Shown: one piece after another, positions 9,609 to 12,413 of the stretch | Numbering within the stretch: the stretch's first letter is position 1 | Layout: each line of letters begins with the position of its first letter | Assembly: GCF_014859475.1 (NCBI RefSeq) | Contig: NZ_JACUUE010000008.1 | Location: 1-35,947 of the forward strand | Reading direction: 5' to 3' | Source: Rhodoferax sp. | GTDB lineage: Bacteria > Pseudomonadota > Gammaproteobacteria > Burkholderiales > Burkholderiaceae_C | Length of the DNA: 35,947 nt | The notes under the pieces: generated by a model | Told to the model about the DNA's origin: nothing | Seen by the model: the letters and a program-made list of their open reading frames with translations, nothing else | Database searches by the model: none | Translations under genes and position numbers: made by a program

Positions 9609-11069
9609 ATGATTTCACGCGAACCCACCCTTGAACGCTTAGGCGTTGCCAAATCCCTGTTGCTCACGCCTTTTGGACTTGACGAATCGCACCTGGCGCG
9701 CGCGCTGGCCGAGATCAAGGCGCACAAGGTGGATGAGGCTGACCTGTACTTTCAGTACACCCGCTCCGAGGGCTGGAGCCTGGAAGAAGGCATTGTCAAA
9801 ACCGGCTCGTTTTCCATTGACCAGGGCGTGGGTGTGCGCGCTGTCAGTGGTGAAAAAACCGCCTTTGCCTATTCCGACGACATCTCGCAGGCCTCGTTGC
9901 TCGACGCGGCCCGCACGGTGCGGTCCATATCGACGGTGGCCCAAACCGGGCACCTGAAGGTGCCGCGCAAAAAAATAGCCTCGTCGCGTTCCCTGTACAA
10001 CGGTCTGGACCCGATTGCCAGCCTGGACAGCACGGCCAAGGTCAGGTTGCTGGAAAAAGTGGAGCAGCTGGCGCGCGCCAAAGACCCGCGTGTGGCGCAG
10101 GTCATGGCCGGACTGGCTGCTGAATACGACGTGGTTCTGGTGGCGCGTGCCGACGGCACCCTGGCTGCCGACGTGCGGCCGCTGGTGCGTTTGAGCGTGA
10201 CCGTGATTGCCGAACACAAGGGCCGTCGTGAAGTCGGTTCGGCTGGTGGTGGCGGCCGTTTTGGCTTTGCCTATTTTGATGATGCGCTGATCGGCCAATA
10301 CGTCGATGAAGCGGTCTCGGCGGCGCTCACCAACCTGGATGCGCGCCCGGCCCCGGCCGGTGAAATGACGGTGGTGCTGGGTTCTGGCTGGCCTGGCATT
10401 TTGTTGCACGAAGCGATTGGTCATGGTCTGGAGGGCGACTTCAACCGCAAGGGCTCGAGCGCCTTCAGCGGGCGCACGGGTCAGCGCGTGGCGGCCAAGG
10501 GTGTCACGGTGCTGGACGACGGCACGATTGCCGACCGCCGAGGTTCGCTCAATGTCGATGACGAGGGCAACGCCAGTGGCCGCAATGTGCTGATTGAAGA
10601 CGGTATTCTCAAAGGCTATATCCAGGACGCCATGAACGCTCGCCTGATGGGGGTCAAACCCACTGGCAACGGCCGCCGTGAGAGCTACGCCCATGTGCCG
10701 ATTCCGCGCATGACCAATACGTACATGCTGGGCGGCGACAAGAGCCCGGAAGAAATCGTGGCCAGCATCAAGAAAGGCCTGTATGCCACCAACTTTGGCG
10801 GCGGCCAGGTGGACATCACCTCGGGCAAATTCGTGTTCTCTGCCAGCCAGGCCTACTGGGTCGAAAACGGCAAGATTCAGTACCCGGTAAAAGGCGCCAC
10901 GCTGGTGGGCAGCGGGCCGGAAGTGCTCAAGCGCGTCAGCATGATCGGCAACGACATGAAGCTCGACAGCGGCGTTGGCACTTGCGGCAAGGAAGGCCAG
11001 AGTGTGCCGGTGGGTGTGGGCCAGCCCACGCTGCGCATCGACGGCCTGACGGTGGGCGGCACGGCTTAG
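9609..11069 (+). CDS. tldD: Metalloprotease TldD
   Basis: TldD forms a heterodimer with TldE/PmbA that degrades unfolded peptides and processes modified peptides such as microcin B17 precursors. The 486-residue product carries the zinc-binding HExxxH motif in LLHEAIGHGLEGDFN near residue 265, the VLDDGTIADRRGSLNVDDEG region, and the C-terminal GTCGKEGQSVPVGVGQPTLRI that closes the active site. Length and order match E. coli TldD. pmbA is not in the window. The stop codon is directly followed by the aroG leader region. Confidence 0.95.
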   Translation: MISREPTLERLGVAKSLLLTPFGLDESHLARALAEIKAHKVDEADLYFQYTRSEGWSLEEGIVKTGSFSIDQGVGVRAVSGEKTAFAYSDDISQASLLDAARTVRSISTVAQTGHLKVPRKKIASSRSLYNGLDPIASLDSTAKVRLLEKVEQLARAKDPRVAQVMAGLAAEYDVVLVARADGTLAADVRPLVRLSVTVIAEHKGRREVGSAGGGGRFGFAYFDDALIGQYVDEAVSAALTNLDARPAPAGEMTVVLGSGWPGILLHEAIGHGLEGDFNRKGSSAFSGRTGQRVAAKGVTVLDDGTIADRRGSLNVDDEGNASGRNVLIEDGILKGYIQDAMNARLMGVKPTGNGRRESYAHVPIPRMTNTYMLGGDKSPEEIVASIKKGLYATNFGGGQVDITSGKFVFSASQAYWVENGKIQYPVKGATLVGSGPEVLKRVSMIGNDMKLDSGVGTCGKEGQSVPVGVGQPTLRIDGLTVGGTA

Positions 11070-11103
11070 GGCTCGCAAAGCAACTGTGCTACAGTCCACT
11101 TCC

Positions 11104-11184
11104 ATGAAGTCAGTTTTCTTTTTCTTTGCTTATTTTTGGTTCTCAAGCGCCTTCGGCGGTAGAGAGTTCTGAACGTACCCAGAT
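11104..11184 (+). CDS. Predicted aromatic-rich leader peptide upstream of aroG
   Basis: A 26-codon reading frame (ATG 11104, TAA 11182-11184) encodes a peptide starting MKSV and continuing FFFFAYFWF, so codons 5-13 hold six Phe, one Tyr and one Trp, with another Phe at codon 17. It ends 16 bases before a strong intrinsic terminator hairpin that lies in front of the gene for the first step of aromatic amino-acid synthesis. This is the arrangement of attenuation leader peptides such as those of pheA and trp operons. Weaknesses: no clear Shine-Dalgarno sequence precedes the ATG, and the promoter is not obvious (TACAGT at 11090-11095 is the only -10-like hexamer). Confidence 0.75.
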
Positions 11185-11231
11185 AAAACGTCCTGATCTC
11201 CCAAAAACCGCCGGCACTACCGGCGGTTTTT
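11148..11231 (+). promoter_or_regulatory. Predicted attenuator (antiterminator/terminator) of aroG
   Basis: Three helices compete. A local hairpin pairs CGCC (11148-11151) with GGCG (11155-11158). An antiterminator pairs CGGCGGT (11154-11160) with ACCGCCG (11205-11211), perfect over 7 bp. The terminator pairs ACCGCCGG (11205-11212) with CCGGCGGT (11218-11225) around CACTA and continues into a T-run to 11231. A ribosome held at the Phe/Tyr/Trp codons would cover the left arm of the local hairpin, free 11154-11160 and favour the antiterminator. Without stalling, the terminator forms. Seen: the complementarities. Inferred: the mechanism. Confidence 0.75.
11201..11231 (+). terminator. Intrinsic terminator between leader peptide and aroG
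   Basis: Perfect 7-bp GC stem CCGCCGG (11206-11212) / CCGGCGG (11218-11224), loop CACTA, flanked by AAAAA and seven T. It may end tldD transcripts as well as act as the attenuator terminator. Confidence 0.92.
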
Positions 11232-11270
11232 TTATGTGTTTTTGTTTTCAACTTTGTGAGGAAGCTTTTC

Positions 11271-12413
11271 ATGACTGCCAAAGCCGCTGTTACTGCTGTT
11301 CAAGATGCCTGGGGCGCCAATGCGCAAAGCCCCGCCGCTGACCGCACTGGTCAGACCGATAACCAACGCATCAAGGACATCACCGTGCTACCGCCTCCTG
11401 AGCATCTGATCCGCTTCTTTCCTATCCACGGCACGCTGGTTGAAAAAATGATCAGCGTCACCCGGCGCAACATCCATCAGATCATCGCGGGCAAGGACGA
11501 TCGCTTGCTGGTCATCATCGGCCCGTGCTCGATCCACGACCCGGCGGCGGCCATCGAGTACGCCCGCCGTCTGAAAGAGCAGCGCGACAAATACGCCGAC
11601 ACACTGGAAATTGTGATGCGTGTGTATTTTGAGAAGCCGCGCACCACGGTCGGCTGGAAAGGCCTGATCAACGATCCGTATCTGGACGAGTCGTTCCGCA
11701 TCGACGAGGGCCTGCGCATTGCCCGTCAGCTGCTGATCGAGATCAACCGGCTGGGGCTGCCCGCTGGCAGCGAATTCCTCGATGTGATTTCACCGCAATA
11801 TCTGGGCGATCTGATCAGTTGGGGCGCGATTGGCGCCCGCACCACCGAGAGCCAGGTGCACCGCGAGCTCGCTTCGGGTCTGTCGGCTCCGATCGGCTTC
11901 AAGAACGGCACCGATGGCAACATCAAAATCGCCTCCGACGCGATTCAGGCTGCCGCCGGTGGCCACCACTTTTTGTCGGTGCACAAAAGTGGTCGCGTGG
12001 CGATTGTGCAAACCAACGGCAACAAGGATTGCCATGTGATTTTGCGCGGTGGCAAGGCGCCCAACTATGACGCCGCCAGCGTGGCCGCCGCCTGCGTCGA
12101 GCTGGAAAAAGCCAAGCTCCCAGCGACCCTGATGGTGGACTGCAGTCATGCCAACAGCAGCAAGCAGCATGAAAAACAGCTCGATGTGGCGCGCGCCATT
12201 GCAGCCCAGATTGCAGCGGGCTCGCACCAGGTGTTTGGCGTGATGGTGGAAAGCCATCTGTGCGCGGGTGCGCAAAAGTTCACGCCGGGCAAAGACAAGA
12301 CCGACAAGCTCGAATACGGCAAGAGCATCACCGATGCCTGTCTGGGCTGGGACGATTCGCTGGCCTGCCTGGACGTGCTGTCACAGGCGGTGTTGGCGCG
12401 ACGCGGGCGTTAA
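11271..12413 (+). CDS. aroG: 3-deoxy-7-phosphoheptulonate (DAHP) synthase, AroG type
   Basis: Type I DAHP synthase condenses phosphoenolpyruvate and erythrose-4-phosphate, the first step of the shikimate pathway. The 380-residue product shows LLVIIGPCSIHDPAAAIEYA, MRVYFEKPRTTVGWKGLINDP, the IGARTTESQVHRELASGLS segment, SAPIGFKNGTDGN, VDCSHANSSK and GVMVESHL, all characteristic of the AroF/G/H class with metal-binding Cys, His, Glu and Asp. The start is the ATG at 11271, with GAGGA 7 bases upstream; an in-frame GTG at 11256 overlaps that site. Which amino acid inhibits the enzyme cannot be read reliably. The upstream leader with mainly Phe codons suggests Phe-responsive expression. Confidence 0.96.
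   Translation: MTAKAAVTAVQDAWGANAQSPAADRTGQTDNQRIKDITVLPPPEHLIRFFPIHGTLVEKMISVTRRNIHQIIAGKDDRLLVIIGPCSIHDPAAAIEYARRLKEQRDKYADTLEIVMRVYFEKPRTTVGWKGLINDPYLDESFRIDEGLRIARQLLIEINRLGLPAGSEFLDVISPQYLGDLISWGAIGARTTESQVHRELASGLSAPIGFKNGTDGNIKIASDAIQAAAGGHHFLSVHKSGRVAIVQTNGNKDCHVILRGGKAPNYDAASVAAACVELEKAKLPATLMVDCSHANSSKQHEKQLDVARAIAAQIAAGSHQVFGVMVESHLCAGAQKFTPGKDKTDKLEYGKSITDACLGWDDSLACLDVLSQAVLARRGR

Follow-up and report, generated by a model that had tools for sequence, protein, structure and literature searches.

A predicted aromatic-codon transcription attenuator upstream of the DAHP synthase gene aroG in Rhodoferax sp. and its relatives

The locus lies in a 35,947-nt stretch of Rhodoferax sp. 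DNA (contig NZ_JACUUE010000008.1, assembly GCF_014859475.1), here called the window; all coordinates refer to its forward strand, which carries the features described. The gene aroG (11271-12413) encodes a DAHP (3-deoxy-7-phosphoheptulonate) synthase that scores 529.2 bits against the aroFGH model TIGR00034 (cut-off 173.2), and a Shine-Dalgarno-like GAGGAAG precedes it at 11258-11264. Upstream, in the same orientation, is tldD (9609-11069; NF008006 match). A leader peptide ORF and an intrinsic terminator lie between the two genes, with aroG as the presumed regulated gene.

Read directly, the leader peptide ORF (MKSVFFFFAYFWFSSAFGGREF, 22 aa) runs from the ATG at 11104 to the TGA at 11170-11172. 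The initial annotation had given it 26 codons, a length yielded neither by this ATG (22 codons plus TGA) nor by the GTG at 11086 (28 codons). Its description of the aromatic run FFFFAYFWF, with eight aromatics in nine codons, holds at 11116-11142. The last four codons of the run, Y-F-W-F (11131-11142), are the likely control codons, judging from their distance to region 2 and from the frame test described below. Ahead of the ORF, an extended -10 promoter element, TGCTACAGT (11087-11095), was recognised by its conservation and would place the transcription start at about 11102-11104.

Folding predicts a hairpin 1:2 at 11140-11166, in which an outer helix (11140-11144 with 11162-11166) encloses an inner one (11148-11151 with 11155-11158). 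The local hairpin at 11148-11158 had been noted before; the enclosing helix, and hence the larger structure, had been missed. Region 2 (CGGCGGT, 11154-11160), the antiterminator strand, is encoded in Gly-Gly codons of the leader ORF and has two alternative partners, one within the local hairpin, which can thereby sequester it, and the other being region 3 (ACCGCCG, 11207-11213), a part of the terminator 5' arm. A 7-bp antiterminator helix had been proposed with this same leader strand, and its partner, given as 11205-11211, was two bases off. The intrinsic terminator just before aroG stands as first described, with a predicted stem of 12 pairs at 11203-11231 and a 7-base T-run at 11227-11233. 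Of 200 dinucleotide shuffles of the segment 11104-11234, 199 fold less well than the native sequence (z -3.68), a result to which the terminator contributes; the whole-leader fold in the window consists of hairpin 1:2 and the terminator.

To place the element in context, we examined relatives of the host, using "family" for genomes of the host's family and "order" for Burkholderiales. AroG matches came from 149 of the 150 family genomes, the host among them. Upstream DNA was used for 143 of them (G040, G043, G068, G074, G112 and G115 were left out) as a set of 30 + 113 loci, and two stretches were too short, leaving 141 family genomes tested. In 138 of the 141, an ORF upstream of aroG has five or more F/Y/W within nine codons, compared with 1/141 on the reverse strand and 28/2820 dinucleotide shuffles. 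Two further loci, L144 and L216, carry four aromatics and were counted as homologues, which brings the aromatic leader to 140 of 141 family genomes. In the sole exception, G140, the genome's best AroG match is a 67% paralogue. The aromatic codons, on whose conservation the initial annotation had made its interpretation depend, are therefore a feature of nearly the whole family.

The same ORF test was applied to named loci, the best 80 of 592, of which one was too short and 79 were tested. It was passed by 62, including loci from Polaromonas, Variovorax, Acidovorax, Hydrogenophaga, Rhizobacter, Burkholderia, Caballeronia, Massilia and Janthinobacterium. The 17 that did not pass include Polynucleobacter, Thauera, Azoarcus, two Cupriavidus loci and contigs labelled as distant phyla, as well as L051, which has four aromatics and looks like a homologue. 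The 140 family and 62 named leaders give a total of 202, of which 194 are distinct. A covariance model (R1) and an alignment (A1) were built from 108 representatives. Both, like a 129-leader promoter profile and a 191-leader terminator table, omit eleven minus-strand loci (L009, L010, L013, L014, L020, L023, L026 and L028-L031), in all of which the leader is present.

At an E-value threshold of 0.01, the covariance model matches 80 of 300 Burkholderiales genomes, and matches with E below 1e-5 span 14 family labels. All 30 order-wide loci that were fetched, from eight family labels, adjoin a DAHP synthase gene. The leader is thus near-universal in the family and, as far as the covariance model sees, not in the order. 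In a class-wide draw, 12 of 274 genomes were matched, three of them from the host's family. Two more belong to a single family (f63) that lies outside the order; their leaders, MNAARASFYFWYYFPKPLAEEGLRSP and MNTPCARFYRWYYFPKPPAEEGVRAF, precede a DAHP synthase. The class-wide draw also gave seven weak matches in seven genomes (E 7e-4 to 0.01); five of these loci were checked, and none lies beside a DAHP synthase.

Evidence that the ORF is read as codons comes from its frame. In a control block of 27 nt, F/Y/W codons make up a fraction of 0.73 when read in the ORF frame and of 0.255 and 0.173 when read in the other two; the ORF frame is the richest in 192 of 192 leaders, which argues that the aromatic run is not merely a T-rich tract. 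This frame test was used instead of codon-position substitution counts (2501, 3132 and 4141), in which unaligned codons were mixed. Phe is written TTT in 62% of cases in the leaders and in 16% in aroG. Among the 140 family leaders, 128 contain all three amino acids (Phe, Tyr and Trp); the means over the family leaders are 4.48, 1.59 and 0.97 codons per leader, respectively, and Trp is present in 131.

F/Y/W codon density peaks 18-23 nt before the antiterminator strand, where aromatic codons are found in 184/192 leaders at 21-23 nt and in 187/192 at 18-20 nt. At 9-11 nt the count is 10/192, and nearer still it is 1 to 4/192. Tyr is commonest at 21-23 nt (91/192) and Trp at 15-20 nt (67/192 at 18-20 nt and 85/192 at 15-17 nt), with Phe frequent at all positions of the aromatic block. 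The footprint of a ribosome extends about 12 nt past the first base of the codon in its A site. The placement of Tyr, Trp and Phe suggests that all three amino acids are represented by a codon within the effective stalling window. From the start of region 2 downstream to the leader stop codon, the median distance is 21 nt (range 6-34), so that a terminating ribosome would sit on or just past region 2.

In 127 of 140 family leaders, the 3' end of a TGnTAnnnT box lies 5-10 nt ahead of the start codon, where the background expectation is 0.04; the nucleotide directly preceding that codon is a pyrimidine (C or T) in 131 of the 140. No AGGA, GGAG or GAGG occurs at Shine-Dalgarno distance in any of the 140 family or 62 named leaders, and a plain sigma-70 scan found no promoter before the leader. 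The near-fixed -10 spacing and the preceding pyrimidine place the predicted transcription start at or near the A of the ATG. Together with the absence of a Shine-Dalgarno sequence, the spacing of the box suggests that the mRNA is leaderless, and the leader is probably translated from such an mRNA. Of the two weak points recorded at the outset, the missing Shine-Dalgarno sequence thus proved real, and a promoter, then considered uncertain, is suggested by the conserved extended -10 box. Leaderless mRNAs have been documented in Cupriavidus metallidurans and in B. cenocepacia (excerpts of PMC7563307 and PMC4603805, respectively).

In loci of Burkholderia type (for example L084 and L086) and of Oxalobacteraceae (for example L108), a TATAAA or TATAGT ends about 26-36 nt before the ATG, again with no Shine-Dalgarno sequence; the distal box ends about 36 nt before the ATG in L084 and about 26 nt before it in L108. 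These distal boxes indicate that the leaderless layout is not universal, and it seems that the attenuator is served by two different promoter arrangements.

The terminator is present at -12.2 kcal/mol or lower in all 194 distinct leaders, whereas the same finder, applied upstream of the leader, returned 12/194 at -12 kcal/mol or lower. It begins 15-48 nt after the leader stop codon (191-leader table), and in A1 columns 162 and 163, 7 of 8 changed cells are tolerated as G-U. For the outer 1:2 helix, 91.7% of cells are paired on A1, with changes on both sides in 4/5 pairs, and no shuffle of 500 reaches the covariation score of this helix and the terminator jointly. Hairpins following the control codons have a mean z of -1.18, with 100/108 below 0 and 63/108 below -1. 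A comparison of own with permuted arms gave no signal for the outer 1:2 helix (63/300 permutations reach the own value), which we attribute to both arms being nearly invariant.

The antiterminator was followed through a core of five pairs, which could be scored in 190 of 194 distinct leaders and is Watson-Crick at all five in 175 of these 190. Thirteen leaders have a changed region-3 core (ten CCGTC, two CCGCT and one TCGCC). The changed pair is kept in all 13, as a Watson-Crick pair in 11 and as G-U in 2, and the 11 matching region-2 changes are seven GACGG, one GACGA, two AGCGG and one GGCGA. The antiterminator complementarity first proposed from a single sequence is therefore conserved at its core in relatives, with compensatory changes. 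On short stretches and after filtering, 77 of the 140 family members showed a tldD C-terminus upstream, and a tree of 77 such C-termini includes 10 of the 13 region-3 variants. Its six G-to-A members fall in one group (100/98) of eight rows, together with one G-U member and one unchanged member; the AGCGG and GGCGA members lie outside this group. Changes on both sides at three different pairs point to at least three independent double changes.

Tests on the representatives bear on the same pairing. Across the 108, the energy of a leader's pairing with its own terminator was reached by 0/2000 permutations. On the unanchored A1, both-side changes occur at 4/7 antiterminator pairs; 0/500 shuffles reach the covariation score and 4/500 the percentage paired. 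Four of five measures agree with conserved pairing; the number of further pair types is not above shuffles (219/500). Sliding the antiterminator by +3 on A1 scores as high (0.071 vs 0.066), which we put down to the repetitive GGCGG sequence. A variant region 3 occurs in 40 leaders; in 20 of these the majority form would pair better than the leader's own, in 15 the own form is better, and 5 are ties, which suggests that the outer antiterminator positions are not constrained. RNAalifold found no structure when given the part of A1 that covers regions 2 and 3. Misplacement of region 2 in about 15 rows of A1 is the probable cause, and the anchored core count (190 leaders) replaces this analysis. 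Separately, GAGAG at 11162-11166 can pair with CUC at about 11197-11201, before region 3, as a possible extension of the antiterminator; support for this pairing is modest (3.818 vs 3.596 permuted, 0/500).

The conservation of leader, terminator and antiterminator across relatives supports the attenuator interpretation put forward in the initial annotation. On this comparative sequence evidence, a ribosome-mediated attenuator of the trp/phe type, acting through aromatic codons, very probably controls aroG. We infer that transcription starts at, or no more than two bases from, the leader ATG, and that a ribosome would initiate on the leaderless mRNA. In the cell, a shortage of charged aromatic tRNA would make the ribosome stall on the Y-F-W-F codons, where it would cover the 5' arm of hairpin 1:2 and leave region 2 free. 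Region 2 could then pair with region 3 before the 3' arm of the terminator is made, and RNA polymerase would continue into aroG. If no stall occurs at these codons, the ribosome would reach the stop codon and cover or pass region 2; the terminator would form, and transcription would end at about 11231. In partial folds computed with neither the terminator 3' arm nor a ribosome, region 2 pairs at least as much with region 3 as within hairpin 1:2 in 172/192 leaders. A simple equilibrium would thus not give termination by default; in fed cells, termination has to depend on the terminating ribosome, on the order of folding or on the terminator's own stability.

It is worth asking whether the same features could arise otherwise. 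A hairpin between tldD and aroG, two genes in the same direction, might be a plain tldD terminator with the short ORF as a by-product of a T-rich stretch. We give this reading almost no credence, as the frame test contradicts it: the aromatic codons are frame-specific. Furthermore, a conserved -10-like box lies between tldD and the leader, compensatory changes link leader and terminator, and the element adjoins a DAHP synthase in all 30 order-wide loci checked, with the tldD C-terminus detected upstream, on the filtered short stretches, in 77/140 family members. It is also very unlikely that the leader is an arrest peptide of the TnaC kind, sensing a free aromatic ligand in the ribosome and not tRNA charging. 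The conserved hydrophobic run near the terminator would be compatible with nascent-chain arrest, but F, Y and W substitute for each other at a given distance from region 2, and downstream of the run the residues change along with the RNA pairing they encode, whereas arrest peptides tend to retain fixed residues. In addition to attenuation, the terminated leader RNA and its peptide might act in trans, like rnTrpL/peTrpL of S. meliloti. The predicted product, a short, leaderless and terminator-ended RNA, resembles rnTrpL (as described in parts of PMC7298713), but the C-terminal part of the peptide varies with the RNA structure, and we consider such a role unlikely.

A narrower form of the attenuator explanation deserves more weight. 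Here the attenuator would respond effectively to Phe only, with the Tyr and Trp codons as passengers. Phe is the commonest of the three (4.48 codons per family leader vs 1.59 for Tyr and 0.97 for Trp), and AroR of C. glutamicum, which holds Phe-Tyr-Phe, is described in parts of PMC11802643 as answering to Phe and not to Tyr. Against this, 128 of 140 family leaders hold all three amino acids, and the Tyr and Trp codons are placed where stalling should count, at 21-23 and 15-20 nt from region 2. A response to Phe alone is a real possibility that we nevertheless find doubtful. As to which of Phe, Tyr and Trp is effective, we infer from codon placement that the attenuator may sense all three.

The enterobacterial pheA/pheL, pheST and trp leaders combine a leader peptide, the mutually exclusive helices 1:2, 2:3 and 3:4, and an intrinsic terminator. 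The aroG leader is predicted to share this architecture, with another target gene and another sequence. The E. coli ilvGMEDA leader reads several end products of a branched pathway, as proposed here, with branched-chain amino acids instead. The mechanism class itself is already known, from trpL, pheL and aroR-aroF of C. glutamicum. The last of these, an attenuator reported by Neshat (2014, via PMC11802643) and predicted in PMC4046766, is the nearest functional precedent. As far as the available parts of these sources describe it, aroR-aroF likewise places an aromatic leader peptide before a DAHP synthase gene, and stalling is said to raise transcription. It differs, in a comparison made by description, in belonging to an actinobacterium and in having a Phe-Tyr-Phe leader responding to Phe and not Tyr; the aromatic run of the aroG leader is denser, and Trp is present in 131/140 family leaders.

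Two further systems share single traits with the aroG leader. The S. meliloti trpL attenuator RNA has its 5' end at the ATG of the leader ORF, according to parts of PMC7298713. It is thus leaderless, as predicted here, and differs in its Trp codons and its trpE(G) target. The uORFC-13-1 motif upstream of aroF in Acholeplasma is a predicted uORF with one or more Phe codons and a terminator, likewise before a DAHP synthase gene (excerpts of PMC8632094). It differs in being known from 24 representatives (Acholeplasma and environmental), in having a predicted ribosome binding site and in requiring at least one Phe codon only.

In Rfam, no family reaches its gathering score in the window; Phe_leader (RF01859) scores 18.8 bits here, below its gathering score of 55. 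Among the literature matches listed, no description in Burkholderiales was recognised by title or start of abstract; an earlier mention is possible, as coverage of subscription journals is thin. The accessible parts of PMC2965389, PMC12125101, PMC11109978 and PMC1262725 contain nothing on an aroG leader element. The initial suggestion that the element is undescribed for aroG in this group thus agrees with the literature searched, with the qualification that an aromatic leader before a DAHP synthase is known in Corynebacterium glutamicum.

The known protein regulators were also considered. A TrpR model matched none of 21 relatives and nothing in the host genome, and the TyrR-type HTH model TIGR04381, listed as HTH_TypR and taken by us to mark TyrR, was absent from the host genome; both models matched the E. 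coli positive control. Matches to the TyrR-type HTH protein were seen in 2 of the 21 relatives, G121 and G720, which are of the same genus as the host. In gammaproteobacteria, TyrR and TrpR control aromatic genes (parts of PMC5343134). A broader proposal, which we hold to be evenly poised, is that one leaderless leader reads the charging of three tRNAs, so that a lack of any single end product would open the common first step, and that it replaces TyrR/TrpR control of DAHP synthase in much of Burkholderiales and occurs in at least one outside family. The attenuator offers a testable answer to how bacteria without TrpR or TyrR model matches adjust entry to aromatic synthesis; for about 200 leaders, and presumably for many more, it would supply a regulatory element that Rfam lacks. 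If true, a single leaderless leader that combines three end-product signals by codon placement would offer a clean system in which to study multi-signal attenuators.

Within the host genome, the aroG element is the only strong covariance-model match. The only other match passing E 0.01, L226 (E 0.002), is a stem between convergent ORFs and was set aside. A candidate second attenuator before the other DAHP synthase was also rejected: its ORF is absent from the six other paralogues examined, two of them 77-80% and four 55-61% identical, and it probably arose by chance. At that locus (L002/L268; G000:C61, minus strand), the ORF MSRPYYRGWFWLRGVVHLNSPRAL is followed by a long inverted repeat, GTAGCCCGGATGCA/TGCATCCGGGCTAC, ahead of the second DAHP synthase gene.
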